Assembly (NCBI GenBank): GCA_944377745.1
Contig: CALWFV010000026.1
Location: 1-45,681, forward strand
Length of the DNA: 45,681 nucleotides
Direction: 5' to 3'
Origin: an uncultured Mediterraneibacter sp.
GTDB lineage: Bacteria; Bacillota; Clostridia; Lachnospirales; Lachnospiraceae
Below, piece by piece: positions 4,994 to 31,672 of the stretch (positions within the stretch are counted from its first letter, which is position 1; every line of letters starts with the position of its first letter). The position numbers were made by a program, and so were the translations under genes. Under the pieces are notes generated by a model. The model saw only the letters and a program-made list of their open reading frames with translations, was not told the DNA's origin and did no database searches.

Positions 4994-5182
4994 ATCTGCC
5001 TCCCTACTATTATTGTAAATTCCTTCTTGTCAACAGTTTCAAAAGCATTCAGCCTTCATAATTTTAATTTATCAGTTCATCTGTTTTTAGACAAATGCTT
5101 ATATTTTATCGTTTATCATTGGTGTCAGGCATTATATGATGAAAAGAAGATGAATATGGGATATCATTTAGAATTGTATATT

Positions 5183-5210
5183 GAAAAAACCCCGTAAACA
5201 CGGGGTTTTC
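5183..5210 (-). terminator. Intrinsic terminator of left tRNA-Met
   Basis: On the minus strand, AAAACCCCGTG, a short loop and CGGGG are followed by six T's, immediately after the tRNA 3' end. The same hairpin follows the right tRNA copy. Confidence 0.85.
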
Positions 5211-5216
5211 AAGAAG

Positions 5217-5290
5217 TAGCGGAAACTGGATTTGAACCAGCGACACCACGGGTATGAACCGTGTGCTCTAGCCAACTGAGCTATTCCGCC
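5217..5290 (-). tRNA. tRNA-Met (CAT), left copy
   Basis: A 74-base cloverleaf with acceptor GGCGGAA/TTCCGCT, D-arm AGCTCAGTTGGC, anticodon loop with CAT, and T-loop TTCAAAT. The discriminator is A and CCA is not encoded. The sequence is identical to the copy at 31584-31657. A possible promoter lies upstream on the minus strand, with TTGCAA at 5369-5364, a 17-base spacer and TATTCT at 5346-5341, so this copy may be expressed. An elongator Met identity is favoured, but a lysidine-type Ile(CAT) cannot be fully excluded by eye. Confidence 0.93.
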
Positions 5291-5340
5291 AAAATATATT
5301 AGATAAGGGATTATCTAAAAAATTTATTTAATTCTTGTAT

Positions 5341-5369
5341 AGAATACACTAACAATCGCATTTTTGCAA
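5341..5369 (-). promoter_or_regulatory. Candidate promoter for left tRNA-Met
   Basis: TTGCAA and TATTCT are separated by 17 bases on the minus strand, about 50 bases before the tRNA. Both boxes are close to the consensus, but nothing else supports it. Confidence 0.4.
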
Positions 5370-5470
5370 GCCTTTTTTTAAGTATTTTTGTGCATTATTT
5401 CTTACAATATTCATTCCATTTATTGTTTGAATTTTCTGACTATTGTATATTTTAGACTGTTTAGGAATCT

Positions 5471-5495
5471 AAACTAGGGTAAAATTAGGGTAATT
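5471..5495. repeat. TAGGGTAA repeats, left end of the island
   Basis: AAACTAGGGTAAAATTAGGGTAA contains two tandem copies of TAGGGTAA, between the tRNA and the integrase. A closely related pair (ACTAGGGTAAAAACTAGGGTAA) occurs at 31485-31510 inside the right end. Paired repeats at both inner ends suggest integrase arm-type or excision-factor sites. Confidence 0.55.
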
Positions 5496-5641
5496 TCTTT
5501 TCGCCATGTTTCATTTACAATTCTAATAATATAATCCAAGTATTTTTTCATTTAGTCAACTAACTTTTATTAATCATTCTTATATATTCATTGAATACTT
5601 CCATTTTTATTCTGAACAAGTTAACTATGGGAGGTTTTAAA

Positions 5642-6380
5642 ATGAAACGACGCATGAACAATGAAGGCTCATGGGGAACAAAAACAATTAATTCGATAAA
5701 CTATGTCTTTTTCAGAAAGACATATGTTTATTTTGATGGAACAACCGAGGACAAATATTTTTACGGAGCCACTTCTTCTGAAGTAAACCATAAACGGCAA
5801 AAATTCGAAAAATCATTAAATCAAACGAGACTCAGTCCATCTACAGCTTCACCTCAACTCACTTTCGGACAATATATTGAGAATTGGCTTTACAATGAAA
5901 AAACAGCGACTGTGCAGGAAGGAACATTTGATGGATATGAAACGGCAATTCGTGTCAGAATAAAAAATTTCAAAGGATACGACTTATGGAATAAGCAATT
6001 GTCACAGATAAATTCAGATCCGGCAGTTGGGATAAATATCTTCAAATCATATATTGATGCTTTAAGAGAGCATGGTTATTCTCTAAAAACTATTAAAGAG
6101 GTTGCCACATTAATTTCACAGTGTTGTGCCTATGCTTCTAACCCAATGCGAAATGATCTTGCATATAACTATATGGATTATGTCACCCTTCCAACGGAGG
6201 CTACTGTTAAAACACATAAAAAAGAGATTCACTTTATGTCTGAAGCGGAAATGCATGTATTGTACAATGAGGCAAAAAGAGTGAATTTGCCTACAGAAGG
6301 AGGTACAGGAACAGGCAAGTTAGTTTATAGCAATAATGGTTATGCGATTATACTAATAATGTATACCGGATTTTTGATTT
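5642..6380 (+). pseudogene. Tyrosine integrase, catalytic domain deleted
   Basis: It starts at an ATG eight bases after GGGAGG. The ~245 recognisable residues comprise an AP2-like N-terminal segment (GSWGTKTINSINYVFFRKT) and the SAM-like core-binding domain (LTFGQYIENWLYNEKT, then SLKTIKEVATLISQCCAYA). The beginning of the catalytic domain follows (FMSEAEMHVLYNEA, then ILIMYTGF). An intact protein would continue RxGE and the rest of the R-H-R-Y active site; here it passes at about 6378 into non-integrase sequence and runs open to 6604 only because it reads the next gene backwards. It is the only plus-strand gene of the island's left end and faces away from the tRNA. It cannot recombine as it stands. 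Confidence 0.85.
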
Positions 6381-6396
6381 TTATATCATACATGGT

Positions 6397-7002
6397 TTAC
6401 TTCCCTCCAAAAACAAATTTATTCATTCGCTGTACAGTAGCTTGGATAATTGGGCCTGATATCAAAACTGTAATAATCGTACAAATACCGAAGCTACCTC
6501 CCAGCAAAACCCCGATAACGACCATCGCCACATCCAATATTATACGGACAATTTTGACAGGCCATCCATTTTTCCCTGCCAGAGAAAATGTCACTGCCTC
6601 ATAAGAACCACGCCCAAGATTTGCTGATGCATAGATGCCAGTTCCTACTGCAAAGAGAATAATACCGATGCACATCAGCAGGAAATTTATCCAGACAATA
6701 TCGCTGTATCTTTGTATCCTACTGAATATCTCTACAAACCCACTGTATACCACCTGATACAAAACAGTTCCAATATGGATCTGTGAACGGTCATAAAACC
6801 AAACAAATACGATCATGACCACTGCTACCACAAAAGAAGTCATTCCGATACTCATCCCAGTAACTTTGGAGACTCCCTGCCATAATACGGCCAAAGTTGC
6901 ACTGCCGAATCCGGCATACATAGCAAGCGTAATTCCATAAGCAGAAATAATTGAGCCAACAAGAATTACTATAATTTTAGTAAGCCAGTTTTTTTCTCTC
7001 AT
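6397..7002 (-). CDS. YczE/YitT-like integral membrane protein
   Basis: 201 residues, complete, with about five hydrophobic helices. The family features are the N-terminal helix with GSIISAYGITLAMYAGFGSA, the glycine-rich ASANLGRGSYEAVTF segment and the last helix VMVVIGVLLGGSFGICTIITV. YczE-type proteins have no firmly established substrate. The ATG overlaps the stop codon of the upstream amidohydrolase fragment by four bases (ATGA), so the two were translated together, perhaps as a deaminase plus a transporter-like protein for purine- or triazine-like compounds. Its 3' end abuts the broken integrase, so the right-hand part of a foreign operon has been joined here. Confidence 0.72.
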   Translation of the reverse strand: MREKNWLTKIIVILVGSIISAYGITLAMYAGFGSATLAVLWQGVSKVTGMSIGMTSFVVAVVMIVFVWFYDRSQIHIGTVLYQVVYSGFVEIFSRIQRYSDIVWINFLLMCIGIILFAVGTGIYASANLGRGSYEAVTFSLAGKNGWPVKIVRIILDVAMVVIGVLLGGSFGICTIITVLISGPIIQATVQRMNKFVFGGK

Positions 7003-7355
7003 AACGCCCCTCCTGTAGATTCCTGTACAGACGAGATGATTTCTTCTTGAAGGGCGGGAAAGTGCTTAGAAGCCCTCTGAAGTAATTCATGACTAATCTC
7101 ATCAGCATATGCACTTTTCTGCCATTCGTCAATGCGTAGCAATCGCCCCTTTTCAACAACAATCTCTCCGTTGACAATAACAGTATCCACCATACGGGCA
7201 TCACCACTAAGTACGATACAGTCAGCAGGATCATTTCGGCCTCCTGCATAGGAAAGTGAACTCCAGTCAAGCAGAGTCAAATCTGCTGCTTTACCCGGCA
7301 CTAAGGTACCTATATCATTCCTTCCCAACGCTTTTGCTCCACCAGCTGTACCAGA
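6999..7355 (-). pseudogene. Amidohydrolase/deaminase C-terminal fragment
   Basis: The frame from a TAG at about 7356 reads GGAKALGRNDIGTLVPGKAADLTLLDW and continues through MVDTVIVNGEIVVEKGRLL to a helical C-terminus. This is the characteristic end of TrzN/8-oxoguanine deaminase/adenosylhomocysteine deaminase-type amidohydrolases, in which the metal-binding barrel comes earlier in the chain. About 320 N-terminal residues are missing, so no activity is expected. It overlaps the YczE-like gene by four bases. The substrate cannot be told from the fragment. Confidence 0.78.
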
Positions 7356-7530
7356 CTACGTATCCGGAAGAAGGAAGGCGGCGTGAAAGAGTATCTTATG
7401 ATCCGCAGGCTCCGCTGTACGGAATATCCCGTATTATCCAAGGAGTGAACCACCTGCCCGACATACTGCGTGAGGTGATGTACCGGATGTACGGTACTAT
7501 CCCCGCAGTGCCTCATGACCTCCCTGAACT
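7356..7530. other. Unassigned joint between amidohydrolase and beta-clamp fragments
   Basis: Both flanks are truncated genes. Open frames exist on both strands (on the minus strand the clamp frame continues through it), but none resembles a known protein and no ribosome site is present. It is probably a short leftover from a deletion. Confidence 0.4.
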
Positions 7531-7825
7531 CGAACACAGGCAGACTTGCCTTTCCGGTCTTCCATTTCACCAAGACGGTTTCCCCATTCAAGATTAGAGA
7601 AATCTCGTCCTCTGGAATTTTACCGACTATAGCCATCATGGTGGAAGCCTTGACCGCGATACTCATGTCCTTGCAGTCCACCGGGAAGCGGTTGCTGACT
7701 GCCAGATGCTCTGATGCAGCAGATACTTCCATTTCCCCGGACTTCACCAGGATGTTCAATTCTCCGGAACCTCTCAGGGCCTTTGCAGTACAGGAGATTT
7801 TTTCTAAAAATATCTTTCTGTCCAT
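7531..7825 (-). pseudogene. DNA polymerase III beta-clamp-like N-terminal fragment
   Basis: Begins MDRKIFLEKISCTAKAL with AGGAGG seven bases upstream and continues SGEMEVSAASEHLAVSNRFPVD, KASTMMAIVGKIP and GETVLVKWKTGKASLPVFE. These are the first ~98 residues of a DnaN-type sliding clamp, i.e. part of the first of three domains. Past residue ~98 the reading frame continues to 7310 but with unrelated residues, finally reading the amidohydrolase fragment in another frame. Clamp-like genes of this kind are carried by conjugative elements and plasmids of clostridia. The fragment probably belongs to the same degraded element as the sigma-like gene upstream. The chromosomal dnaN would be elsewhere. 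Confidence 0.68.
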
Positions 7826-7897
7826 ATCTTATCCTCCTCTTTTTTGATTCAGATTAAAATATGGCTCTATAATCCGAAACAAATAATATTGCAAAGA

Positions 7898-8311
7898 TTA
7901 GCCAAGATATTTCGCATGGTTGATCTGTACCCACCGTTCCCGCTCGATAAAATACTTTATCCCAACCTCTGCCCTGGGAGCTTTATTAATCCCTTCTCTC
8001 TTCCTGCGAAGCACATACACTCTCTTCCTCTGTTTTTCAGTAAGCTGATCGAGCGCGGCATAGAGCTCTTCTTCTTCCATATTCCGCTCTATAATCTCCT
8101 GAACAGATGGAACATGGTGGCTCATTTCTCTTTCAATGTTATCGCCACAATCCAGAGAATAATATGCTTTGTACCGGTATGTACGGATCCGGTAAGCGGT
8201 ATCTCCCCGTACGAATTCCAACAGGACTTCTACAACCTCGTCCGGCAGTGAAACAACATAGTCTTCTTTATATATTTCCGGGTAAAATTCCCGCAGATTA
8301 ATTTCTCTCAT
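7898..8311 (-). CDS. Sigma-70-like small regulator of a conjugative element
   Basis: 137 residues starting MREINLREFYPEIYKEDY, with GGAGG six bases upstream. It has a middle YKAYYSLDCGDNIEREM and a region-4-like LDQLTEKQRKRVYVLRR segment. This resembles the small sigma-70-family proteins of Tn916-type and related integrative elements (MKEINLRDFYP-like starts). The expected C-terminal helix-turn-helix is poorly recognisable after VYVLRR, so a compensated frame change or divergence there is possible. It lies between a 101-residue element gene (14-base overlap) and the clamp fragment. Its likely job was control of element excision or transfer genes; whether it still works is uncertain. Confidence 0.65.
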   Translation of the reverse strand: MREINLREFYPEIYKEDYVVSLPDEVVEVLLEFVRGDTAYRIRTYRYKAYYSLDCGDNIEREMSHHVPSVQEIIERNMEEEELYAALDQLTEKQRKRVYVLRRKREGINKAPRAEVGIKYFIERERWVQINHAKYLG

Positions 8312-8603
8312 GATAATCCTCCAATCTTGATTTTTTGATTGAACCGAAAATCAAAATCGAAGGTGGGGACCGGCATCTGCTCTGCTTTTCGTCAAAATGA
8401 TCTTCTCCCCCGTATATAAAAAGAGGCGCCTGCCAACAGACAGACGCACACTGATACGGATTACTTCTGTAATTAACAGAAAGCGAAAAATTTATGTCAT
8501 TTTTTGTCGAATGGAACGCCCCTGTAATCCGCAGTTGAATTACAGGACCGTTATTAAAATATACCCGATGTTTCCGGGGCCGAACTTCCGGCTTTTTCTT
8601 CAT
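8298..8603 (-). CDS. Hypothetical element protein, 101 residues
   Basis: I do not recognise the family. It begins MKKKPEVRPRKHRVYFNNG with a GGAGGGAG site ten bases before the ATG, and its stop overlaps the start of the sigma-like gene by 14 bases, which argues for a real translated gene. The centre has an aromatic/Cys-rich patch (YRSNPYQCASVCW). The last ~30 residues look random and may follow a frameshift. No signal peptide or membrane segment is seen. Confidence 0.42.
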   Translation of the reverse strand: MKKKPEVRPRKHRVYFNNGPVIQLRITGAFHSTKNDINFSLSVNYRSNPYQCASVCWQAPLFIYGGEDHFDEKQSRCRSPPSILIFGSIKKSRLEDYHERN

Positions 8604-8733
8604 CCACTCTGGTCTCCCTCCACGAAGGAGAACCTATGGACTGTTTATCGTCAACCTCCTTCTATATGGGAGAGCATAGGTGGAAATATTCTATTCTTTT
8701 TCCCGAAGTATCCAAATTCCGACAGATCAGGCA

Positions 8734-8768
8734 GAAAAAAGCGCCGTCTGATATCAGTGCGTTTTTTC
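8734..8768 (-). terminator. Candidate terminator after the response-regulator fragment
   Basis: On the minus strand, GAAAAAACGC, an inner palindrome CTGATATCAG and GGCGCTTTTTTC form an imperfect hairpin ending in a T-run, directly after the fragment's stop codon. Confidence 0.55.
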
Positions 8769-8769
8769 C

Positions 8770-8984
8770 TCAAACCTCAGATTTATAGCCAACACCGTAA
8801 ACACTTTTTACATAATCGGGGATATCTGGGGCTATCTTTAACTTTTTTCGGAGATTACTCACATGGTTATTTACCGCTTTACGTGAATAAAACGAATAGT
8901 CCTCATGCCAGACCAGATCCATGATCATCTCATAGGTAAAGACACGTTTCGGATGCATGATCAAGAGGGCAAGGATATCAAATT
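8770..8984 (-). pseudogene. OmpR/VanR-type response regulator, C-terminal fragment
   Basis: From a TAA at 8985 the frame reads EFDILALLIMHPKRVFTYEMIMDLVW, then AVNNHVSNLRKKL and YVKSVYGVGYKSEV. This is the DNA-recognition half of an OmpR-family winged-helix effector domain. The phospho-acceptor receiver domain (about 120 residues) and the first winged-helix strands are absent. No in-frame ribosome site is seen, so it is almost certainly not expressed as a regulator. The break falls 12 bases after the GH2 stop codon and marks where the glycoside cargo was joined to the degraded conjugative element. Confidence 0.8.
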
Positions 8985-8996
8985 CTTACCTGCCTT

Positions 8997-11195
8997 TCAT
9001 TCGCTCTTCTTTTTCGATATTTGGGTCAGTTTCCGGTTCAGTTCCCTTACCATTTCCTGAGTAATCGCTCCTCCTGCCATCTGGATAAGCCCGATCACTG
9101 TTGAGCGGTAAAGCATCTGTTGCATCTGAGGTGTCCTTTTGACGGCTTTGGTCACCCCGCCTTTGGCAGCCCTGGCATATTCGATCAGATCATCGATCAG
9201 TTTTCTTCCTTCCTCGTTATTTCTAATCTCTTCCAGCGTATCCTGAATGGAGAAATACCCGGGCACCACTTCCATTCCCGGCTCGTCAAACCAGTTCCGG
9301 ACAGAGGTCGTCTCCAGATAATAATCCGGATTTGGACTGTCAGCTTTCCTGATATGCATCCGGTCGCTCAGCCCATGGCTTCGAACCTCAATCGTATGCT
9401 CTCCTGAGATTGGTATTATAAAGGCAAAGATATGGGCGCCTTCCTTCTCATCAAGCAGCTTCCCGTCACAGTACAGTGCCGCACGCTCCTGATTAGTGTA
9501 GACCTTTATCTCCGTCATATTTTCTGCCCTGTCCACATACCGTTTCCCGCACAGATGGATAAAAGGTTCACTGCTCCAATATGCCTTATAGAGATAAAAC
9601 GCGTCTTTTCTGATTTTTCTGTCAAAGCTTACCAGACCTTTATGGTTCACACCGTTATCTCCTGCTTCCTCTCTTCCGTCCGCTCCGAAGTCAAACATAT
9701 TCCACACATAACTGCCCCATATATACGGTCTGGACGTAAACATCTTAAGCATATGCTCATGATACACGCACTGATACTGCTCCGAGTAATCTCCCCGCTG
9801 AGGTTTTGCCGACTGAAGCCTGAAGTGTGCATCTGCCCCATACTCGGAGAGACCTATGCACTTTTTCGGAAATCTCTTATGGAAGTCATCAAAAAAACGG
9901 TCATTATCCTCCAGCTCTCCCATATACCATCCATAGTACAGATTATAGGAAAGGATATCGGGGATATCATTGATCGGATTCTCCGGTTCCAGCATAAATG
10001 CATCTGCCATTGCTGTCACCCTCGTTGCATCCAGCCTGTGTGCCAGATCATTGAGGATCCGGTGGTTTTCCAGCAAATCCTCTGTAACGCCAGCAACACT
10101 CACTTCATTAGACAATGCCCAGCACACAACAGACGGGTGATTATAATTCTGGATGATCAGTTCCCGCATCTGAGATACAGTATTCTCCCGGCCATCCGGC
10201 ATATGTCTTGTAATATACGGAATTTCCGCCCACACGATCACACCGCGTCGATCGCACAGGTCATAAAAATACTGGTCATGCTGGTAATGGGCCAGACGGA
10301 TGGAATTGGCTCCCATCTCAACAATGAGATCCATATCCTCCTCCAGCATTTCTCTTGTTATGGCATTTCCTACGCCCCGGCGGTCCTGATGCTTTGACAC
10401 GCCATGAAGCGGACAGTGCCGTCCGTTCAGGAAAAAGCCTTCTTCCGGATCAAAACGATACGTCCGGCACCCGAAATCAGTGTCCACTCTGTCTGTTATC
10501 TCGCTTCCTGACAGTAGCTCTGCACTTGCATGGTACAGATACGGATCACTGATTCCATTCCAGAGATGTACATCTTCTATACAGATCACTGCCTCAACAC
10601 ATCCGTCTTTACACGGAACTGTAACGGAGTCCACTCCTTCAATACTCAGCCTGACCGCATCACTCTTTCCGCTTACATATGCCTGAATCGTGACAGATGC
10701 ATTTTTTCCTTCTACACAGGGCGTCACTTTGATTCCCGGAGTCCCGTAATAATCCAGATCAAAGTGGACTTCCGGCACAAGTATCATATTCACATCCCTG
10801 TAAATCCCGCCGTAAAAAGTAAAATCCGCTTTTTGAGGATAAACTCTGTCATTCGCCCTGTTGTCTACCTTGACTTCGAGCACATTTTTATCCCGAAGCA
10901 CCTTTGTAATATTCACACGGAAACGAGAGTATCCTCCGTCATGAACCGCAAGTTTTATACCGTTGAGCCATACTTCTGCCGTAGAGTTTACACCGTTAAA
11001 CTCCAGATATACCTGTCCTTTATCTTCCAGTACGGGTCTGTCAAACTTTTTTCTGTAGCAGCACACTCCCCTGTAATAATCATCGCCTCCGTCCTGCCCG
11101 TCTTTCGCATTCCATGTATGCGGAAGATCAATGCAGGCACATACACCTTCTTTTTCAAAAATCCAGTCTTTATTGATATTTATGATCTCTTTCAT
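8997..11195 (-). CDS. Glycoside hydrolase family 2 (beta-galactosidase/glucuronidase type)
   Basis: 732 residues from the ATG at 11195, which follows GGAAAGG; the longer open frame to 11276 has no ribosome site. Domain order is the jelly-roll (1-180, with VNSTAEVWLNG), the Ig-like sandwich (180-250), and the TIM barrel from FFLNGRHCPLHGVSKHQDR. The acid/base is Glu364 in WALSNEVS and the nucleophile Glu451 in GLSEYGAD. The enzyme is cytoplasmic (no signal peptide) and removes beta-linked terminal galactose or a similar sugar. After a C-terminal beta domain comes an unusual helical tail (about 650-732, ending GAITQEMVRELNRKLTQI), similar to that of the GH3 enzyme at 23886-26177. It is the last gene of the esterase-HPr-like-symporter unit, 22 bases after the symporter. 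Confidence 0.9.
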   Translation of the reverse strand: MKEIININKDWIFEKEGVCACIDLPHTWNAKDGQDGGDDYYRGVCCYRKKFDRPVLEDKGQVYLEFNGVNSTAEVWLNGIKLAVHDGGYSRFRVNITKVLRDKNVLEVKVDNRANDRVYPQKADFTFYGGIYRDVNMILVPEVHFDLDYYGTPGIKVTPCVEGKNASVTIQAYVSGKSDAVRLSIEGVDSVTVPCKDGCVEAVICIEDVHLWNGISDPYLYHASAELLSGSEITDRVDTDFGCRTYRFDPEEGFFLNGRHCPLHGVSKHQDRRGVGNAITREMLEEDMDLIVEMGANSIRLAHYQHDQYFYDLCDRRGVIVWAEIPYITRHMPDGRENTVSQMRELIIQNYNHPSVVCWALSNEVSVAGVTEDLLENHRILNDLAHRLDATRVTAMADAFMLEPENPINDIPDILSYNLYYGWYMGELEDNDRFFDDFHKRFPKKCIGLSEYGADAHFRLQSAKPQRGDYSEQYQCVYHEHMLKMFTSRPYIWGSYVWNMFDFGADGREEAGDNGVNHKGLVSFDRKIRKDAFYLYKAYWSSEPFIHLCGKRYVDRAENMTEIKVYTNQERAALYCDGKLLDEKEGAHIFAFIIPISGEHTIEVRSHGLSDRMHIRKADSPNPDYYLETTSVRNWFDEPGMEVVPGYFSIQDTLEEIRNNEEGRKLIDDLIEYARAAKGGVTKAVKRTPQMQQMLYRSTVIGLIQMAGGAITQEMVRELNRKLTQISKKKSE

Positions 11196-11217
11196 AACTT
11201 TCCTTTCCGATGTATAT

Positions 11218-12609
11218 CTATACCTCAGCAGACACACTCTCATTCTCCGCTTTTGCCGCCTCTCTTGCCGCTTCATTTTCAGCGTTGATCTGCGGCATCA
11301 TATCATCGAGCTTATAGCAGAAGAAGAGGATAAGGAATGTGATCAGATGGAAAATTCCCGGAAGCAGTGTCTGTCCGAAACGGATTCCCATCATTGTACC
11401 TGCCGTAATCTCCATCTGGGCATTGTATCCGATCAGTCCCAGAAGGATTCCGCCGAATGCGACTGAGATTGCTCCTCCCGTACGTTTTGCGAATCCCTGA
11501 ATAGCAGCCAGTGTACCCTCCATACGCGGCATCTTTTTCCACTCATTGTAAGATGCACAGTCAAAGATCATCAGGCGGACAATATGTGACATAGGAAGCG
11601 CCCCCATCATAACGAAGAAGTTGCCGATCAGAAACGCGATCAGGTTTGTATTTGCGAAAAAGCAGACAATCTCACCAAATATGGACATTCCTGCGCCAAG
11701 AGCCATCAGAGAGTGGACCTGCATTTTCTTAAGCAGCTTCGGAAAGAAAAAGACAAACGGGAGGGCAAAGATTGTCAGCGCGGACGCAACACTCTGAAGC
11801 CCTACATTGCCCAGTATTACTTCAAAATAATAAACCTGAAGGCCGAGGTTAGACGCAAAATTAGTAAACAGTGTAAAAAGCACGATGATCCAGATATATT
11901 TGTTCTTTCTGAGAATCGTTACTGCATCTCTAAGTCTGATTTCTTCTGAACTTTTGGAATCGGCATCCACATCTTCTGTCTCTTTAATGAAGATGAAACG
12001 CATCATACCGATAATAGCCACAGGACATCCGACCATGATCGCGATCCTTGTCCAACCGCCGCCAGCCGGAGCATATGCTGCGATCAGCTGCGGGGCGATA
12101 ATATTGAATGCAAATCCCGCAATACTTGAAATAACCCCCATAAAAGACTGCACACGGATAATCTGTCCTCTCTTAAATGCGCGCACCATATATACCGTCT
12201 CCCCTGCGTTCAGGAAAGTGTTAAACAATGCCGTGGCAAGCAGATACATACTCAGTACCCATATGTATTTCGGTGTATCGCCCCAGCTCGCCGGGCAGCT
12301 GAACATCAGGATCACGCTGATCCATGTGCCGATCACACATAATTCATATGGACGACCTTTCCCGAGACGAGTCTTTGTACGGTCAACAAGATATCCAGCA
12401 ATCACGTCTGTAATAGCATCGATCACCCGGCTTACTGCCAGCAGGATACCCAGGATTACCGGATCGAGATAAAGTGTATCCGTACAGTAAAACATAAAAT
12501 AACCGAGCATCAGTACACTGCATGTCTCTGATACCTCTCTTGACCCCCATGCCCAGAATCTTCCAATACCTACTCTGTCAGGGTTTTTCTCTCGTTTTTT
12601 CCCAAACAT
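11218..12609 (-). CDS. GPH-type (MelB-like) sugar:cation symporter
   Basis: 463 residues with about 12 hydrophobic helices and the GPH signature VDRTKTRLGKGRPYE in the loop after helix 2/3 (near residues 75-90). The second half holds CASYNEWKKMPRMEGTLA, the typical cytoplasmic loop of this family. GAGGAGG precedes the ATG at 12609. The family imports glycosides and oligosaccharides with Na+ or H+. It sits 45 bases after the HPr-like gene and 22 bases before GH2, so it probably imports the substrate of the GH2/esterase pair. It is a diverged paralogue of the symporter at 26207-27565. A GPH carrier with soluble enzymes points to intact import followed by cytoplasmic hydrolysis. Confidence 0.9.
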   Translation of the reverse strand: MFGKKREKNPDRVGIGRFWAWGSREVSETCSVLMLGYFMFYCTDTLYLDPVILGILLAVSRVIDAITDVIAGYLVDRTKTRLGKGRPYELCVIGTWISVILMFSCPASWGDTPKYIWVLSMYLLATALFNTFLNAGETVYMVRAFKRGQIIRVQSFMGVISSIAGFAFNIIAPQLIAAYAPAGGGWTRIAIMVGCPVAIIGMMRFIFIKETEDVDADSKSSEEIRLRDAVTILRKNKYIWIIVLFTLFTNFASNLGLQVYYFEVILGNVGLQSVASALTIFALPFVFFFPKLLKKMQVHSLMALGAGMSIFGEIVCFFANTNLIAFLIGNFFVMMGALPMSHIVRLMIFDCASYNEWKKMPRMEGTLAAIQGFAKRTGGAISVAFGGILLGLIGYNAQMEITAGTMMGIRFGQTLLPGIFHLITFLILFFCYKLDDMMPQINAENEAAREAAKAENESVSAEV

Positions 12610-12654
12610 CTTTGTTCCTCCTCATTCTCCAGACTCCTCTTTCTGACAGTTACT

Positions 12655-12885
12655 TTATTCAGTTATAAATTCTTTCAGGATCTCTTTGTCTTCTTCGCAC
12701 TGACATCTTACGGTTCCGCTCCTAATAATCCCGTCATGTCCGGACACTGTAGAAAACAGGAATCTCGATAATGTGGAATTCAGATTGAGCTGATCTCCGT
12801 CCAGTGTTTCGAAAAGCACATCTTTGTTGCATTTTTTTACGGTATCCAGAAAATCCGCATAATTAATTCCGTCTTTTAATTTCAT
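12655..12885 (-). CDS. Small HPr-like protein without the active-site histidine
   Basis: 76 residues beginning MKLKDGINYADFLDTVKKC, with a GGAG-rich ribosome site. The pattern of an opening strand, a helix with a conserved Cys, LNLNSTLSRFLF and a final helix CEEDKEILKEFITE resembles small HPr-fold proteins that Lachnospiraceae often encode inside sugar operons. There is no GIHARP-like phosphorylation motif, so phosphotransfer is not expected. Such proteins may be regulatory or scaffolding partners; this is inference from length and pattern. It is placed between the esterase-like gene (32 bases away) and the symporter (45 bases away), hence co-expressed with both. Confidence 0.55.
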   Translation of the reverse strand: MKLKDGINYADFLDTVKKCNKDVLFETLDGDQLNLNSTLSRFLFSTVSGHDGIIRSGTVRCQCEEDKEILKEFITE

Positions 12886-23880: not shown

Positions 23881-23885
23881 ACCGA

Positions 23886-26177
23886 TTAACAACTTTCCTG
23901 ATTTATTTCTGTCAGAAATCTGTTCAACTGTTCTTCCCTGAGCGCCCCGTATGTCACCATAGACCTCAGAGGCATACCGAGCATAGTAGTCTGGATCGTC
24001 TGCTCGATCCGTTCCGGACACTCTTCCACATCCGACTGTTCCTCAATCTCCAGCTTTGAGAATCCCATATATTTCATAAGAGCTTTCAAAACAAACTGCC
24101 TTCCTTTTTCATTTCGGATCAGGCGCCCTACCGTTATATACTGCGTATAGCATACGGGCAGTGCCTGCGTACTTTCGATACGGACCGAATCCTCCAGTCT
24201 CAGATCCCTGCTGGATGCACCGATCTGGATCCTGTATTCTCCGTCCGGGACATACCAGTCATGAAGTTCTTTGCTGTAATATGCGAATGCCCTCTTATCC
24301 AGAGTAAACTCTGCTTCTCTGCTCTCCCCCGGCTTAAGGTCAATCTTGGCAAATCCTTTCAGTTCCCTGACCGGGCGTTCCTCCAGAGCCGGATCCGTTT
24401 CCGGCTCTACATAGAGCTGGACAATCTCCTTTCCCTGCACATTTCCCGTATTTGTCACACGGCACGATACATGGAGGACATCTGTATCTTTCATTTCTTT
24501 TCTGTCTAATCTGATATTATCATAATCAAAACTCGTATAAGAAAGCCCGTAGCCGAAAGGATATTCGACCTCCAATTTCTTCTTATCGTAATACCTGTAG
24601 CCGATAAACACGCCCTCCCGGTATTTTACCTGACCGTTTGCCCCCGGGAAATTGAGGTAAGAAGGATTATGCTCCAGTTCCAGCGGGAAAGTCTCCGCCA
24701 GTTTTCCTGACGGATTCACGCTGCCATACAGCACATCCGCCTCTGCCGCTCCGACTCCTTCGCCGCACAGATATGCCAGAAGGATTGCTTTCACCTGATC
24801 TCTCCACGGCATGATCACAGGCGCGCCGGCATGGACGACAACGACCGTATTGGGCTGTACTGCTGCAACCGCCTCGATCAGACGGTTCTGGACTTCCGGA
24901 AGATCCAGCGTACTTCTGTCCCATCCCTCGCTCTCATACTCATCCGGAAGTCCCGCAAAGACCACAGCTGTCTCTGCTTTTCCTGCCGCCTCCACGGCTT
25001 CCTCTATAAGATGTGCGGCAAGTTTTTTATCCTTTTCATTTTTTACATCATATCCTTTTACAAAAGTGACATCCGCTCCGGCAGATTCTGCCGCATGGTA
25101 TGCATCCTCCACTTTCCATGGATTCACATGACTGCTGCCGCCGCCCTGATAGCGCGGCGTAACAGCAAACTCTCCAATAAACACTGCCTTTGTCTCTTTT
25201 TTAAGAGGCAGGATATCGTCCCGGTTCTCCAGAAGGACCATACACTCGCCGGCAAGCTCTGCCGCCTTTTTGTGATCCGCCTCGTAGTCCTTTACGACCT
25301 CTCTTTTCTGCTCTGTGCAGTCCGATACAAACTGCAGGATCCGTTTTACGATCCTGTCCAGATCACGTTCATCCAGACTTCCGTCCCGCACCGCTTCCAC
25401 GATCTTCTGATCCTGAGCGCCGGGTCCTCCCGGCATCTCAAGATCAAGGCCTGCCCTGACGCCTTCTACACGGTCTTTGACCGCACCCCAGTCCGTCACC
25501 ACAAACCCTTCGTATCCCCACTGATCCCGGAGGATATCTGTCAACAGATTCTTATTTTCCGAGCAGAAAGTTCCGTTCAGGGAATTGTAGGCACACATCA
25601 CTCCCCGCACCTTTGCCTCCTTAATGACTTTTTCAAATGCCGGAAGATAGATTTCATGAAGCGTCCGCTCATCCACCTCTGTGTCTATGCTCATCCGCTC
25701 GGTCTCCTGATCATTGCAGGCAAAATGCTTGACGCAGGCAGCAACTCCCTGTGCCTGAAGACTTTTCACATATGCAGATGCAAGTTCTCCGGCAAGATAC
25801 GGATCCTCGCTGAAGTATTCAAAGTTTCTTCCGCACAGCGGGCTTCTCTTCATATTGACTCCGGGGCCGAGCAGCATCCCCACATTTTCCGTCTGGCATT
25901 CTTTTCCCAGGCACTCGCCCAACTCTTTCATTACATCTGTATTAAAAGATGCAGCCAGTGCGGAAGCGCTCGGGAAACAGACTGACTTGATGCTCTCATG
26001 AATCCCCAGATGGTCTTCCGGTCCGGTCTGCTTGCGCAGTCCGTGAGGGCCGTCGCACATCATGACTCTGGGAATATCCAGTCTCTCAATACTCTTCGTA
26101 TGCCAGTAATAATATCCAGAGCAAAGAGAAGCTTTTTCCTCTAATGTCAACTGCGGCAAAATGTCCATAATATCCAT
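23886..26177 (-). CDS. Beta-glucosidase-type GH3 with helical C-terminal tail
   Basis: 763 residues. The ATG at 26177 follows GGGAG by eight bases and is better supported than that at 26192. Motifs in order: CDGPHGLR (41-48), KRSPLCGRNFEYFSEDP (110-126), KHF (150-152), nucleophile Asp229 in FVVTDWGAV, the ESEGWDRSTLDLP loop with the acid/base Glu, and an FnIII-like domain (CRVTNTGNVQGKEIVQLYV). After it comes a ~75-residue helical tail (VGRLIRNEKGRQFVLKALMKY ... YGALREEQLNRFLTEI) that resembles the GH2 tail at the left end of the locus. Cytoplasmic. It follows the symporter by 29 bases and is closed by a terminator. It releases terminal glucose from imported beta-glucosides. Confidence 0.92.
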   Translation of the reverse strand: MDIMDILPQLTLEEKASLCSGYYYWHTKSIERLDIPRVMMCDGPHGLRKQTGPEDHLGIHESIKSVCFPSASALAASFNTDVMKELGECLGKECQTENVGMLLGPGVNMKRSPLCGRNFEYFSEDPYLAGELASAYVKSLQAQGVAACVKHFACNDQETERMSIDTEVDERTLHEIYLPAFEKVIKEAKVRGVMCAYNSLNGTFCSENKNLLTDILRDQWGYEGFVVTDWGAVKDRVEGVRAGLDLEMPGGPGAQDQKIVEAVRDGSLDERDLDRIVKRILQFVSDCTEQKREVVKDYEADHKKAAELAGECMVLLENRDDILPLKKETKAVFIGEFAVTPRYQGGGSSHVNPWKVEDAYHAAESAGADVTFVKGYDVKNEKDKKLAAHLIEEAVEAAGKAETAVVFAGLPDEYESEGWDRSTLDLPEVQNRLIEAVAAVQPNTVVVVHAGAPVIMPWRDQVKAILLAYLCGEGVGAAEADVLYGSVNPSGKLAETFPLELEHNPSYLNFPGANGQVKYREGVFIGYRYYDKKKLEVEYPFGYGLSYTSFDYDNIRLDRKEMKDTDVLHVSCRVTNTGNVQGKEIVQLYVEPETDPALEERPVRELKGFAKIDLKPGESREAEFTLDKRAFAYYSKELHDWYVPDGEYRIQIGASSRDLRLEDSVRIESTQALPVCYTQYITVGRLIRNEKGRQFVLKALMKYMGFSKLEIEEQSDVEECPERIEQTIQTTMLGMPLRSMVTYGALREEQLNRFLTEINQESC

Positions 26178-26206
26178 TCTTACAGCTCCCATCTTTCTGA
26201 TACCGC

Positions 26207-27565
26207 TTACTTTGCTGCCTCACGGTTTTTCTCATTTTCCTGACGGATTTCCGCCATTCTCTTGTCCAGTTTAAAATATCCTGTCAGCGATATTGCTACC
26301 AATACATAAAGCACCATAGGAACAATACTAAAGAGCATACGGATTCCCATTAAAGTAGCATCTGACTGCACTTCTAATGTTCCATTATATCCTACGATAG
26401 TAAGCAGCACACCTAATCCGCCGCTTCCCACAGCAGCGCCTACTTTCTTCGCAAGATTAACTAAACTGGACATAGTTCCTTCCATACGGTGCAGACCTTT
26501 CCACTCATTATATTCTGCACATTCCAGAACAGCAAGAGAGATCAGCATACTGCTCGGAATAGTTCCTGCGCCGGTAAATACAGCCGCTATTGCAAGAAGC
26601 GGTATGTTTGCCCCTGCAAAAAAGTTTATAAAGTATCCCACTGCCGAGATGATAAAGCCGATAAACATGAGCTTGACCACTGATATTTTCTTCAGAAGAG
26701 GAGGAAAAACAAATGCCAGCGGAATCGCTATGATCTGTACGGCACTTGCAATACTCATCAGACCTACATCTCCGACAATCCATGTATAGTAGTAAACAAT
26801 TGTTCCCATATTAGTTACAAAGTTAAACAGAAGTCCCATAAAGGCAATGATCAGGATATATTTGTTTCCCTTTATTACTGCAAGGGCATCAGATATTTTC
26901 AGGGATTCTTCTTCCTTCTCTGCATCAACATCATATTTTTCTTTTACAAAAATAAATCTGAGGATACCGATCGCTGTCATTGCGATTGCAAATGTACCCA
27001 CTAAAAGGCTCCATCCTGATGCAGAACGTGCATATGTAGACATCAGAATAGGGAACGCAATATTGAAGATTACAGAAGCCAGCATAGTGATCACACTACT
27101 GTAAGATGTCAGTTTTACAATCTGGGTACCCTTAAACGCGCGTACAAGGTACACTGTGTTGCTTGCATTCAAAAATGTATACGCGACTGCATTAACAAGC
27201 GAATACATAATAAATATCCAGATACACTTCATGATCTCGCTCAGTCCCGTCGGGCAGGAAAACATCAGCCATGTAGCCACCCACAGAAGGATAATGTACA
27301 ACTCATACGGACGGGCTTTTCCCCATTTTGTCTTTGTCCTGTCTACAATAAAGCCTGCAAATGCATCTGTCACTCCATCCAGAAGTTTACTTGCTACAAG
27401 GATGATACTGACATATGCAGGGGTAATTCCCAACGTATCAGTACAATAAGCCATTAAGAATCCCATCAAGAGTACCATTATTGAAGTAGAAACCATACGG
27501 CTGTTCCATGCCAGCAGATTTCCAAATCCAAGCTTTTCACTTGGATCTTTTGTTTTTTTCGTCAT
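26207..27565 (-). CDS. GPH-type (MelB-like) glycoside:cation symporter
   Basis: 452 residues from the ATG at 27565 (AAGGAG seven bases upstream; the frame to 27610 has no site). It has about 12 hydrophobic segments with the family loop VDRTKTKWGKARPYE near residue 75 and ECAEYNEWKGLHRMEGTMS in the second half. The tail is charged and cytoplasmic. It leads the locus and is co-transcribed with the GH3 at 23886-26177, so its substrate is probably a beta-glucoside. A candidate promoter and a palindrome lie upstream (27616-27686). The paralogue at 11218-12609 has the same layout but clearly different sequence, so the two probably take different glycosides. Confidence 0.9.
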   Translation of the reverse strand: MTKKTKDPSEKLGFGNLLAWNSRMVSTSIMVLLMGFLMAYCTDTLGITPAYVSIILVASKLLDGVTDAFAGFIVDRTKTKWGKARPYELYIILLWVATWLMFSCPTGLSEIMKCIWIFIMYSLVNAVAYTFLNASNTVYLVRAFKGTQIVKLTSYSSVITMLASVIFNIAFPILMSTYARSASGWSLLVGTFAIAMTAIGILRFIFVKEKYDVDAEKEEESLKISDALAVIKGNKYILIIAFMGLLFNFVTNMGTIVYYYTWIVGDVGLMSIASAVQIIAIPLAFVFPPLLKKISVVKLMFIGFIISAVGYFINFFAGANIPLLAIAAVFTGAGTIPSSMLISLAVLECAEYNEWKGLHRMEGTMSSLVNLAKKVGAAVGSGGLGVLLTIVGYNGTLEVQSDATLMGIRMLFSIVPMVLYVLVAISLTGYFKLDKRMAEIRQENEKNREAAK

Positions 27566-27615
27566 CACTTTAATCTCCTTTTCTTTCATTAAACAACAAA
27601 CCGGTGCCAACTGGA

Positions 27616-27858: not shown

Positions 27859-28185
27859 TATTGATTACTTCTAAATCTGCAACTATTATAATTAATCAGA
27901 GCTTAAAATTATCCCGAATTTTTCTGTAGAAATTCTGTGGTTAGGGCGTTTCTCAATATATTGAGGATAATATAACTTTCTGGATAACCAGCTTTATCTC
28001 AAATTCGGAACAATACCTGCAAGCAATGCAGACTTACGTAAGTTTGCCTATTACAGAGGATTTCCCGTCTCCGAAAAATCCTCTGTAATGCTTGTTGGTG
28101 ATACCTCCCCAAACCCCAAAGATCGCCACCTGCGATGACGGCTGCGCGTTCCTTCGTAACACTGAATACCCAAAGCAAAAATCAA
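27859..28185. other. Non-coding region at the 3' side of the relaxase pseudogene
   Basis: No supported gene lies here. It contains the hairpin at 28050-28089 and, on the minus strand, a GGGGTTTGGGG tract just after the relaxase stop (around 28111-28121). Similar sequence commonly trails relaxase genes of mobilisable elements. Confidence 0.5.
28050..28089. repeat. Perfect 14-base inverted repeat beyond the relaxase
   Basis: ATTACAGAGGATTT and its exact complement surround a 12-base loop. There is no T-run, so an oriT-like or element-end hairpin is as likely as a terminator. Confidence 0.6.
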
Positions 28186-29580
28186 TTACTGCCGGTTCTT
28201 TTCCTCTTTCCTCCGTGTCTCATGCCCGGCAGGAATATCCAGAAGATACTCTACATTTACCCTGACATTATGAAGCTCTTTCATTTCTGCCCGAACCTGT
28301 TTATACTCTGTGTACGCTTTTCTCTTCTGCTCTAACAGTCCGACATATTCTTCCCGGAGATTTTTGACAGAAGGCAGCTTCGTAAGTTCCAGACTGTCAA
28401 AGTATTTCTTCGCCGCCTGATGCAGAAGGATATCAGCTTCATGCTCTGCTCGAAACCTCTTACTGTACCCAGCTTTTCGGTACTCAATATACGTCTCTCT
28501 CGTCTTTGCATATATAACGATCTGTTTCTGCAATTCGCTGTCATCTGTTCTTCAAGACTTTTAATCTTCTCCGACAGATCATTAAATCGAGTTGTCACTG
28601 CCGACGTTTTTTCTTTCAGATCCTCATAGCTCATATCCCCATGTTCTTTCAGATACATGACCGCCTGGGAAAGCTGTTTTAAATTAAATACTTTTGCCCA
28701 TCGTTCATATCCCTGGCCTTTCCCTGAACGGACCGCCTCAATATCTAACAGTAATCCAATTTTTGCCCGCTGCCTGTATGTCGAATTTCTCTGTGGGCTT
28801 ACTATGCGAACACCGCTGATCCGCTCCTTTATCGCCTGTTCGGTATAGTCTCCTTTCAGAGTATTACATCGAGTATAATTTTCCTGCCCTTGCACACGGA
28901 AACGCAGATTCTTCCTTTCCCGGTTGACTTCAATACCTGCTGCCTCCATCTTCTCCAAAAACTCTTCAAAATCTTTCGGCTTCTCTTTTAGGACAGCATC
29001 AATCGCCTGCCGGATCTGCTCCTGAAAAGACGTCTGCTTTTTATTTCCCAGCCAGGTTCCATAATGGGCTCGGCTTTGGATCTTCCACAATAGACAATCC
29101 ATGTTCGAGACAGAGCTTGTCATTCATACGCCGGATTGCCCACGTTGATCCCCAAAAGTTCCGGAACTTTCTGGTACAGTCAAGCGTTGTGGAATTGATA
29201 ATGATATGATTATGGACGTGATGCTTATCTATATGCGTACAGACGACAAAGGCATGATTTCCTTTTGTCAGTTTCTGTGCAAGTTCCCGGCCGATCTGAT
29301 TTGCCTCTTCCGGTGTGACTTCTCCGGGCTTGAACGACTGACGGAGATGGTAAGCAATCACGTCATCTTCACCTCTGCTCCGGCCTGTTACATTCGTATA
29401 CTGTCTTTTGGACAGTAGGAACTCTGCATCCGCAATCCTGGTATCGCACTCATATCCGTATATGAATTTCCCCCGATCTGTCTTCTGTGGATTTTTCACA
29501 TAATCAATGATATCCGCTATCGCCGTGGAGATATCCCTGCCTTTCCCAATATGAAGCGGCATCAGCCGTGTTGTTGCTAT
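28186..29580 (-). pseudogene. MobA/VirD2-type relaxase, three lesions
   Basis: The translated pieces read as one relaxase. The N-terminus is ATTRLMPLHIGKGRDISTAI, with the ORF-like IIDYVKNPQKTDRGK, the histidine triad motif THIDKHHVHNHIIINS, and then FQEQIRQAIDAVLKEKPKDFEEFLEKMEAAG in a second frame. A basic C-terminal coiled region (MQKQIVIYAKTRETYIEYRKAG ...) lies in a third. Lesions: the expected ATG start is ATA at 29580-29578 although GGAGG is correctly spaced; a frameshift lies near 29075-29065 (PKPS to RAHYGTWLG); and a second frameshift lies near 28540-28525 (EQMTA to ELQKQI). The catalytic His cluster is intact, so mobilisation was lost recently. It identifies the island as a mobilisable or conjugative element. 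Confidence 0.88.
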
Positions 29581-29610: not shown

Positions 29611-30120
29611 TTATCTTTCCGGTTCTTTTTGAACATTCTTTTTATCCTCACGCTCCCGCTGCCCATCGCTTTTATTAAGCCGATTTCTCACAGAAGGCTT
29701 CTGTTCCTGTAATTCCTGGTATTCCCTTCTGGCCTGTGTGAGAAATAGATCCATCAGCCCTGTATGGCTGCGGTCCACAATAAACTCTGCGTTTCTGTCT
29801 CTTCCAAAGCTGTCTTTATCCTCAGGAACCGGAAAGGCTTTTGCCCATCCTTTGTTACTGTGGGAAATACGTCCATCCCATTCTTTCTTCCGGACGGTAT
29901 TGGCAAGTACAAGAAATACCCTGTCATATCCGAACTGTTCCACTACCTGATGAACCGCTCCTGATCCAAGCCTGTTTGCCCTGTAATGATCAGCGATTGC
30001 CTGCTCGATCGCCTCCTTACAGTCTATATTCGCATTGTGCGAAAGACGGTACTGCTCTATCTCACCATGCTCCAGTGCATAGGCCACTGAATGAGTATAT
30101 ATTTCTATCGCATCTTTCAA
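29611..30120 (-). CDS. DUF3849-type conjugative element protein
   Basis: About 170 residues starting KDAIEIYTHSVAYALEHGEIEQYRLSHNANIDCKEAIEQAI, the usual beginning of DUF3849 proteins, followed by FGYDRVFLVLANTVRKKEWDGRIS and FIVDRSHTGLMDLFLTQAR. A TTG at 30120 with AAGGAG about ten bases upstream is the most likely start, because this site sits just before the stop codon of the upstream gene; an ATG at 30141 lacks a site. The C-terminus is charged and repetitive (NKSDGQREREDKKNVQKEPER). The function of this family is unknown, but it is a regular partner of relaxases in clostridial integrative elements. The relaxase follows 30 bases later. Confidence 0.75.
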   Translation of the reverse strand: MKDAIEIYTHSVAYALEHGEIEQYRLSHNANIDCKEAIEQAIADHYRANRLGSGAVHQVVEQFGYDRVFLVLANTVRKKEWDGRISHSNKGWAKAFPVPEDKDSFGRDRNAEFIVDRSHTGLMDLFLTQARREYQELQEQKPSVRNRLNKSDGQREREDKKNVQKEPER

Positions 30121-30124
30121 ATCA

Positions 30125-30559
30125 TCACCGCTCCTTTCCATGATCTTTTTTCTCCGGTACTTTCTCTATCGGGCGCAGATCGTCAAACAAATATTTTGCT
30201 GTCTGCTTCATTCCTTCAAAGGTTTCTTCATCCGGCATCCATATCGTAACAACGACTGCATCCAACACTTTCTTCCCCCTGCTCGTATGGCTGAACTCCT
30301 GCGTCCTTCCCCACCATCCGTCGCCTCCGGTCAGTACATCTTCACACTTGCCGTCAACTTCCAGAATGTAACATGCCGTATCTACGCCCACTCCTTTTTC
30401 CTCAACCTTCTGCCCTTTATACATCCAGTCACGCATATAAGTGCCCAAATGCTGTTCCGGCGCAAAATAAAGATTTATTGACAACAAATTATAAGCCGGA
30501 TCAAAGGACAGGCTCTTCTTTTTCGATAGTAAAAAATATCTTATGGACTCAAATAACAC
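30125..30559 (-). CDS. Hypothetical element protein upstream of DUF3849 gene
   Basis: Up to 144 residues, beginning at a GTG (30559) with AGGAG only four to five bases before it. An ATG two bases upstream is out of frame, so a start-proximal frameshift is possible. Recognisable stretches are FDPAYNLLSINLYFAPEQHLG, GVGVDTACYILEVDGKCEDV and VVVTIWMPDEETFEGMKQTAKYLFDDLRP. I do not know the family; the look is of a soluble single-domain protein found in element maintenance modules. It ends four bases before the DUF3849 start, so the two are translated together. Confidence 0.5.
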   Translation of the reverse strand: MLFESIRYFLLSKKKSLSFDPAYNLLSINLYFAPEQHLGTYMRDWMYKGQKVEEKGVGVDTACYILEVDGKCEDVLTGGDGWWGRTQEFSHTSRGKKVLDAVVVTIWMPDEETFEGMKQTAKYLFDDLRPIEKVPEKKDHGKER

Positions 30560-30686
30560 ATGGCTCCTCTTTCATTTGAAAGTGGAATGGATGTTCCTCC
30601 CTCCATTTCGGATCTACTTTTGCTTTTTCTTCCCAATGTCGAAATTGATTAACAAATTTTTGTGTTTCCAAAAATGTGCCCTGCAT

Positions 30687-30757
30687 CAGACCATGAAAGA
30701 ATCGAACTCCCATCTGCAGTATTCGAGACCGCTATTCTACCGTTGAACTAAAGGTCT
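30687..30757 (-). tRNA. tRNA-like element with CGA anticodon (Gly-type scaffold)
   Basis: It folds into a near-complete cloverleaf: acceptor AGACCTT/ATGGTCT with one mismatch, D-stem GTTC/GAAT, anticodon stem GCGGT/ACTGC with loop CTCGAAT, T-stem GGGAG/CTTTC with loop TTCGATT, and discriminator G. The anticodon position reads CGA (codon UCG, Ser), but the variable loop is only four bases, so it is not a normal long-armed tRNA-Ser. The D-arm TAGTTCAACGGTAGAAT is that of tRNA-Gly. It may be a mutated pseudo-tRNA or an element-specific variant. It lies about 90 bases after a second tRNA-like sequence on the same strand. Confidence 0.6.
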
Positions 30758-30846
30758 AAAAACCACCCGGGGCATATGAAGCCCCTTTGATCACAGCCTT
30801 TCGCCGTAGGTGGAAGGAGGTTTTCAGTAAAAAGTAAGAAAACCAA

Positions 30847-30917
30847 ATAGGCTGTCCGGATTCGAACCGGAGAATAGATCCTTGCGCTCCTGTGCCTACC
30901 ATCTCGGCACCAGCCTT
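30847..30917 (-). tRNA. tRNA-Cys-like (GCA) element with degenerate anticodon stem
   Basis: The acceptor AGGCTG/CAGCCT (first pair A-A mismatched), the D-arm GCC...GGC, and the strong T-arm TCCGG-TTCGAAT-CCGGA are clear, and the discriminator is T as in tRNA-Cys. The anticodon region CAGGAGCGCAAGGATCT places GCA correctly, but only two or three stem pairs form and the base before the anticodon is C, not T. It is probably a decayed tRNA-Cys, or an unusual variant specific to the element. Confidence 0.55.
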
Positions 30918-31178
30918 TTGTGTAAATTATCTTATCACATTCGATAATATGATATTTTTCGCAAGTAAAAGCTGGAACTTCACGAAAAGGGTAATATTTC
31001 GTTATAAACCAGCATGCATCATGTCTATTGGGGATACATTTGAAGACATATTTTGCATTTTTAAAGTTTTTGAAGGAATGAGAGTGAAATGTGGGTGTTC
31101 CCACAGCATATCATAGTAAATATGTCCTATGAATATGCATGAGACATCAAACCATATGCACAAATGATAAGATTTTAC

Positions 31179-31295
31179 CTACTTTCTGTTCATCGTTTTG
31201 AGTGCTCCATTATGCCGCTTGACGGACGACACGCGAGCGGTACTGATGAGGGGATAAAAACCGCACCGGTTTTGTCTTCTTTCACACCATATCAT
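31179..31295 (-). CDS. Possible 38-residue ORF near the island's right end
   Basis: A frame reading MIWCERRQNRCGFYPLISTA and then RVSSVKRHNGALKTMNRK. No ribosome site precedes it. The residues look protein-like but no family is recognised, and it may be chance or a remnant. Confidence 0.22.
   Translation of the reverse strand: MIWCERRQNRCGFYPLISTARVSSVKRHNGALKTMNRK
31257..31273. repeat. Short perfect hairpin AAAACCG-CAC-CGGTTTT
   Basis: A seven-base stem with a three-base loop followed on the plus strand by a pyrimidine-rich tract. It could be a weak terminator; no gene ends nearby on that strand. Confidence 0.4.
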
Positions 31296-31484
31296 AATAT
31301 GATATTTTTTTACAAATCGATAAGAATATTTGGTATTATAGTAATATGATGGATTTAATCCATTGTACTTATTAATTGTTCTAATAAAGTGGAAATATGA
31401 TATGAATTGATCAAAATAGCGATTATTTATTAGTTATGCTAATGAAAAACAGCCTAAAAGTCAGAGGTGCAAATGCTTGATTTT

Positions 31485-31510
31485 AAAAACTAGGGTAAAA
31501 ACTAGGGTAA
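31485..31510. repeat. TAGGGTAA repeats, right end of the island
   Basis: AAAAACTAGGGTAAAAACTAGGGTAA has two tandem copies of CTAGGGTAA. It matches the repeats at 5471-5495 in the same orientation, 27 bases inside the right tRNA repeat. Confidence 0.55.
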
Positions 31511-31550
31511 ATCCTTAGTGTGTTACGAAATTGTATAGAATTGTATATTG

Positions 31551-31576
31551 AAAAAACCCCGTAAACACGGGGTTTC
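31551..31576 (-). terminator. Intrinsic terminator of the tRNA-Val/tRNA-Met operon
   Basis: AACCCCGTG, a TTTA loop and a CGGGG stem followed by T's on the minus strand, nine bases after the tRNA-Met 3' end. Confidence 0.85.
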
Positions 31577-31583
31577 CAAGGAG

Positions 31584-31657
31584 TAGCGGAAACTGGATTT
31601 GAACCAGCGACACCACGGGTATGAACCGTGTGCTCTAGCCAACTGAGCTATTCCGCC
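31584..31657 (-). tRNA. tRNA-Met (CAT), right copy
   Basis: 74 bases, identical in the tRNA body to the left copy, with anticodon CAT. It follows tRNA-Val by 15 bases and shares its promoter, while a terminator follows. This is most likely the ancestral gene, because it stays joined to the tRNA-Val/purL chromosome. Confidence 0.95.
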
Positions 31658-31672
31658 ATATTAGGTTTTATA

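Follow-up and report, generated by a model that had tools for sequence, protein, structure and literature searches.

The islands collected by Islander (PMC4383910) are described as combining a tyrosine integrase, a tRNA target and direct repeats at both ends, and as leaving one full tRNA gene together with a displaced fragment. Among its 3919 islands, 3760 have 3' and 159 have 5' fragments, and an anticodon-centred site is one common class (2083 of 3919). In tRNA-dependent lysogeny, as presented for actinobacteriophages (PMC10865867), the phage brings a complete tRNA of the target isotype, with a promoter shown for Fionnbharth; the related phages Cain and Ximenita differ in rebuilding the host tRNA. 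Integrative and conjugative elements (ICEs) of Pasteurellaceae are reported in tRNA-Leu, with an intact tRNA-Leu copy after parA (PMC6028734), and actinobacterial ICEs are described as integrating at the tRNA 3' end (PMC3218068). Here we analyse a 45,681-bp stretch of DNA from an uncultured Mediterraneibacter sp. (the window; contig C26 of genome G000, a draft of 85 contigs), in which two complete tRNA-Met genes bound a 26-kb region holding a cut tyrosine integrase, a frameshifted relaxase and a set of sugar genes. The explanation we favour, and judge fairly probable from the layout of the locus, is that a degraded integrative mobilizable element fills window 5.3-31.5 kb, and that its attachment site carried a whole tRNA-Met gene.

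Like the Islander islands, the region has a tyrosine integrase, a tRNA target and terminal direct repeats; unlike them, it has a full tRNA at each end. The Islander program, according to its description (PMC4383910), discards matches inside a full-length tRNA gene, so the arrangement in the window would go unlisted. As in tRNA-dependent lysogeny (PMC10865867), the element would bring a complete tRNA of the target isotype, here with conserved upstream sequence and a candidate promoter. That system has a common core of ~10 bp and rebuilds the tRNA at neither junction, whereas in the window the right copy is complete and both junctions carry a whole gene. Unlike the actinobacteriophages, the element bears a relaxase, and no phage nature is established for it. 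The Pasteurellaceae ICEs, like it, are transmissible elements with a full replacement tRNA, yet by the account in PMC6028734 they leave the host tRNA broken at both ends, with remnants of 10-13 nt. A limited literature search, with subscription papers mostly outside it, found no account of an element leaving two complete tRNAs.

Two complete tRNA-Met genes with paired inner repeats

Both tRNA-Met genes lie on the minus strand and are complete according to ARAGORN and Rfam, the left copy at 5216-5290 and the right copy at 31583-31657. The right copy stands intact behind tRNA-Val(tac) (31672-31746, minus strand; ARAGORN, Rfam), the first gene of the host Val-Met pair adjoining purL, and its upstream spacer resembles that of relatives, at most of whose loci Val also precedes Met; the host tRNA is rebuilt at this junction, the presumed attL, where the gene would have its host 5' part. 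The upstream region of the left copy differs from that of the right copy, and the integrase lies farther out on that side. The copies are identical across the tRNA and belong to a common 122-base block with two differences, which runs from the 5' edge of the tRNA to ...AATATACAATTCTA; beyond both limits the likeness stops abruptly. They are the only near-full tRNA-Met copies in the genome, the other three of five matches being short or weak. An earlier note on this DNA, made from the letters alone, had described two full tRNAs in the same orientation in place of one full gene and a 3' fragment, and this description holds: no tRNA-Met fragment was found in 5291-5700, between the integrase and the left copy. 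The left copy itself would therefore occupy the expected attR core, with a 5' half presumed to derive from the element.

Each gene is followed by a hairpin, seen by eye, with the AATATACAATTCTA motif (31536-31582 and 5169-5215, both minus strand); a combined sigma-70 and terminator scan called no terminator in the left region. The first of these we read as the right end of the element. Since the motif is found at element ends, that after the left copy is read as the end of an older element.

The inner repeats that the note had placed at both ends are, within the window, confined to the junctions. The sequence TAGGGTAA occurs at exactly four window positions (5475, 5486, 31491 and 31503), compared with a mean of 0.78 single sites in 100 shuffles, none of which reached four. 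Its paired form is present at only two places in the window, 5475-5493 and 31491-31510 (both plus strand), just inside the two tRNA-Met copies, and in none of the 100 shuffles. By hand count, ~220 bp separate the left pair from the anticodon of its tRNA-Met and ~110 bp the right pair from that of the other copy; we presume the pairs to be integrase arm sites of the left and right ends.

Also as claimed, an integrase fragment lies at one end and a relaxase at the other. The N-terminal 243 aa of a tyrosine integrase (5642-6370, plus strand) end at MYTG, just short of the catalytic arginine of its relatives; in genomes G017 and G440 the related integrases run on after MYTG as LR or MR plus the catalytic domain. 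The relaxase (28332-29562, minus strand) is frameshifted: the frame at 29041-29562, which carries the nuclease domain, overlaps a second one at 28332-29123, and an 87% identical region of G005 holds a single 463-aa frame. In NCBIfam it matches MobP-type relaxases, with scores far under the curated cut-off. An integrase with attachment sites at both ends, as expected of an integrative mobilizable element, is found in remnant form: the truncated integrase, the two 122-base repeats and the arm-like sites. No type IV secretion gene was detected among the 23 island open reading frames scanned with Pfam, the remaining frames being outside the scan. Given an integrase that ends before the catalytic arginine and a frameshifted relaxase, the element can probably no longer move. 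Lacking the catalytic part, its integrase would not be expected to support excision or mobilization without help. An integrase of the same kind that could help is not apparent in the genome, where the next-best match is weak (34% over a part).

The promoter-like boxes that the note had assigned to the left copy (TTGCAA-17-TATTCT, by eye; 5334-5369, minus strand) fall below threshold in a sigma-70 scan, which gave four sites in 5100-5700 versus 3.7 in shuffles and none at the boxes. This chance-level result is not used as proof, and the case for a promoter is made by conservation of the upstream sequence, not by the consensus scan. The 110 bp upstream of the left copy align with the sequence upstream of the complete tRNA-Met of G007 with a score of 27 (500 single-base shuffles: mean -7.7, maximum 9). 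A 19-mer at 5334-5352, sought with at most two mismatches, occurs in 2 of 58 genus genomes, upstream of tRNA-Met in both, and is exact and in the same place in G007. A shorter upstream pattern, CTTG...TAGTGTA..CT, is common to the inverted copy of G057 and to G033. The conserved pattern suggests a candidate promoter for the left tRNA-Met.

The tRNA-Met locus in related genomes

All 58 genus genomes, with this one among them, gave a match to a purL-Val-Met query. The DNA downstream of Met was considered in 42 genomes besides this one and G017: 28 gave a measurable interval, 13 did not, and G007 was left out, as in that genome ispF is connected to the second copy alone. The interval from the first Met to ispF is 383-1353 bp in 20 of the 28 and 2.0-26.2 kb in the other eight; the compact cut of 1.4 kb was chosen after the values were seen, and the value for G005 joins two stretches. 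One of the compact genomes, G052, holds a tandem Val-Met pair. purL stands directly before Val-Met on one contig in, for example, G014, G003, G001 and G032; the purL and Met matches are far apart in G010 and G019, and several contigs break there. The single-tRNA empty site, next to purL, that the earlier note had predicted for an insertion at tRNA-Met is thus the usual state among the measured relatives.

The note's placement of the old chromosomal border at the left tRNA-Met did not survive. In this genome ispF sits on another contig, C40, from ~1442, and an aldo-keto reductase gene is split over the ends of the two contigs: its start lies at window 52-708 (Pfam positions 3-196 of 291), its other end in the first 0.9 kb of C40 (Pfam positions 240-290 of 291), and in G053 a single gene aligns with the two pieces. 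Window 1-5160 and ~1.4 kb of C40 are therefore also inserted, and the insertion takes in all of the window to the left of the right Met. Window 1-5160, at first taken as native flank, was dropped as such. C40 gave no piece of tRNA-Met. A match to a group II intron (C40 596-681) was considered as the cause of the break between the contigs and replaced: the DNA reading, made by eye with BLAST confirming only the outer two pieces, suggests that a further insertion in the same gene explains it. An end resembling that of an insertion sequence, also seen by eye, precedes the ispF flank (C40 ~1400-1440).

The integrase was sought more widely. In the genus, 8 of 58 genomes gave matches at E 0.001 or better, strong only in this one and G017; in samples of the order and family, 3 of 392 and 2 of 397 genomes matched, each count including this one. 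Scans of genome contigs and viral contigs confirmed no relative, phage records gave nine matches at 26.7-29.4% identity, and plasmids gave none. The G017 integrase (53% identity) adjoins nt 24-74 of tRNA-Met, after which comes ispF, and a different contig carries a complete Val-Met; to judge from this layout, it is the ordinary 3'-fragment arrangement at the same site. In G440, an integrase of 384 aa (36-38% identity) lies beside a complete tRNA-Thr between two integrases (C17), and the same contig has a 5' tRNA-Thr piece (nt 1-40) 62 kb off and, 58 kb away in the opposite direction, a 3' piece (nt 51-72). Since the second integrase is on the other side, two elements would share that tRNA-Thr. 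If recombination takes place at the same point in G017 and G440, the start of the G017 fragment and the end of the G440 5' piece would bracket the crossover between nt 24 and 40, in the anticodon region. No tRNA was called near the integrase of G389 (36% identity), and G554 was rejected as a similar case, since its complete tRNA-Thr, with the 3' end facing the integrase, is in the ordinary layout.

G007 has a complete tRNA-Met with ispF on the 3' side and, on the 5' side, upstream sequence like that of the window's left copy. Right after this tRNA comes a sequence that resembles the terminators of G014 and G023 and runs on to ispF, which would put the crossover upstream of the terminator.

These arrangements led us to a model in which a tyrosine integrase would have inserted the element into the tRNA-Met gene that follows purL and tRNA-Val. 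The attachment site, in contrast to that of usual elements, would carry a complete tRNA-Met with its own promoter and terminator, so that recombination inside the tRNA, presumably in the anticodon region, would leave two complete genes. The right copy would combine the promoter and 5' half of the host with the 3' half of the element, and the left copy the element's promoter and 5' half with the resident 3' half. As that resident side is the apparent end of an older element, the locus would have grown by tandem accretion at a hotspot. Later loss of the integrase catalytic domain and frameshifting of the relaxase would have fixed the element, with the sugar genes as its cargo.

Alternative origins of the second tRNA-Met gene

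Several observations count against this model. The other junction of G007 is unseen, as contig C81 ends inside the tRNA, and the two junctions of G017 are on different contigs. The G440 3' piece, which starts at nt 51, does not fit an anticodon crossover and was assigned to the second element. The link between C26 and C40 hangs on one split gene. The end motif ATA[CT]AATTCT is present in only three of the eight enlarged Met-ispF intervals, as against none of the 20 compact ones (Fisher p 0.017), and in one of the 13 unmeasured genomes, G011; it was picked after the sequences had been seen and independent cases are few, so the association is not used as proof. A backward-pattern control of the 19-mer also matched 2 of 58 genomes (one match each, in G034 and G037), and it is therefore the place and exactness of the 19-mer match that count, not the number. 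Finally, the two tRNA-Met genes of G033 stand ~205 bp apart with no element between them, the second one having a similar promoter pattern, and the sequences after the copies are alike within a genome in G000, G057 and G033 (in G033 by eye).

The last two observations would also be expected if the promoter-bearing second tRNA-Met were an older chromosomal duplication of Met and its terminator, between whose copies islands accumulated later by homologous recombination or unrelated insertions. We regard this as possible but rather unlikely. Complete tRNA duplications do occur in the genus: the Val-Met pair is duplicated in tandem in G052, G018 and G012. G057 has two inverted tRNA-Met genes, with 108-base arms 96% complementary, 1 kb apart (L071 18427-19686). 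The earlier note had held that its reading would be refuted by close relatives without the glycoside genes that still keep both copies, with the core genes equally far apart; extra complete tRNA-Met genes are indeed found in G007, G057 and G033, beside the tandem pairs, but the separations differ. On a purL tree of 35 of the 58 genus genomes, this one included, to which our clade statements apply (G033 with 39% of columns, G012 and G018 absent, G017 of unsure placement on a long branch), the four carriers of a second Met require only two changes. They fall, however, in two separate groups, and the supported clade of G000 and G007 also contains single-copy genomes such as G014, G003 and G044, although as few changes sufficed in 85 of 500 label shuffles. 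The two groups fit repeated acquisition; gain and loss is also compatible. Also counting against an older duplication are the integrase and paired arm sites at the two copies, the lack of a separate 3' fragment marking another attR, and G440, in which a related integrase lies beside a complete tRNA of another isotype with a 5' piece as the second copy.

A patchwork of several insertions between attachment-site remnants, in which the integrase, relaxase and sugar genes have no common history, seems to us improbable. The gene fragments at 6397-8964, the element-end motif after both tRNA-Met copies, the intron remnant in the adjoining C40 segment, and the relaxase region, whose closest relative is on contig C25 of G005 with no tRNA called in the 20 kb taken there, are all in keeping with such a history, yet the matching arm-like sites point to at least one element spanning the interval. 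That the left copy merely joins unrelated sequence through an assembly or binning artefact is very improbable. The draft is fragmented into many contigs, and C26 and C40 both end inside one gene, but both copies are on one contig, G007 has the same left junction in a separate assembly, and the flavodoxin and aldo-keto reductase genes of the left flank are together in G053 too.

Cargo, neighbouring sequences and implications

Inside the favoured element, the cut integrase is followed by a mosaic of short or cut, unrelated genes (6397-8964, minus strand), among them a YitT-like gene, an amidohydrolase C-terminus, a response-regulator C-terminus and others without a match. The cargo (8997-27610, minus strand) comprises GH2, two MFS_2 sugar transporters, a protein with a weak PKD match, GH43, a GH78 rhamnosidase, a DUF5060/DUF5605 protein, two GH3 and an AraC regulator. 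That the element brought the sugar operons, as the earlier note proposed, is plausible. Window 8700-16200, 7.5 kb of the sugar locus, matched 20 of 58 genus genomes; one of the 20 is this genome, and the rest matched piecemeal. It was not found as a whole block in the 57 others, with at most five candidate places per genome scored. No donor was found with this stretch or with window 15100-22500, which matched 26 of 397 family genomes including this one, the others at 65-75% identity, with at most two places per genome scored.

Sugar-related transporters, hydrolases and AraC regulators were also seen in the DNA beside tRNA-Met in G007, G005 and G056. The element-side DNA encodes a GH5-type enzyme and an MFS_2 transporter in G007, and an MFS_2 transporter and an esterase-like hydrolase in G005; in G056 the sugar-related genes were read from translations only, and a DDE transposase is beside Met. 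A DUF3849 protein adjoins the relaxase (29611-30141, minus strand). Right after the relaxase, ~140 bases (28015-28156) share 87-93% identity, over all or some of their length, with G005, G035, G016 and G043, and are possibly part of a mobile module. A tRNA-like gene of 73 nt with anticodon CGA (30686-30758, minus strand; Rfam 52 bits) was called tRNA-Ser but lacks a long variable arm, and a possible second cloverleaf-like remnant was noted by eye at ~30850-30916.

Outside the 26-kb unit, the segment with flavodoxin, DUF4405, LysR and aldo-keto reductase genes (1-5132, minus strand) is not the flank found in relatives; its flavodoxin/DUF4405/LysR cluster is present a second time, in diverged form, on contig C12 of this genome. 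C40 (L109 4786-18572) is 99.4% identical to G023 over 13.8 kb, while purL is only 91% identical, which suggests recent recombination.

Taken together with the relatives, the locus allows a tentative proposal, which we hold less probable than not, that tyrosine integrases of one small clade safeguard the targeted tRNA in three ways: by a 3' half (G017), by a promoter and 5' half (G440), or by a whole promoter-bearing tRNA gene (G000 and G007). In the last mode, integration would add a working tRNA gene and two new landing sites. If this is true, the whole-tRNA mode would favour tandem accretion, and island finders that seek fragments would miss such elements. Whole-tRNA elements would leave no remnant, raise the tRNA gene count and offer two landing sites, and so could account for tandem islands and for some of the surplus tRNA genes. 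Comparison of related integrases whose tRNA arrangements differ may then serve as a test ground for how element-borne tRNAs and classical attachment sites interconvert, a question that the account of tRNA-dependent lysogeny leaves open (PMC10865867).

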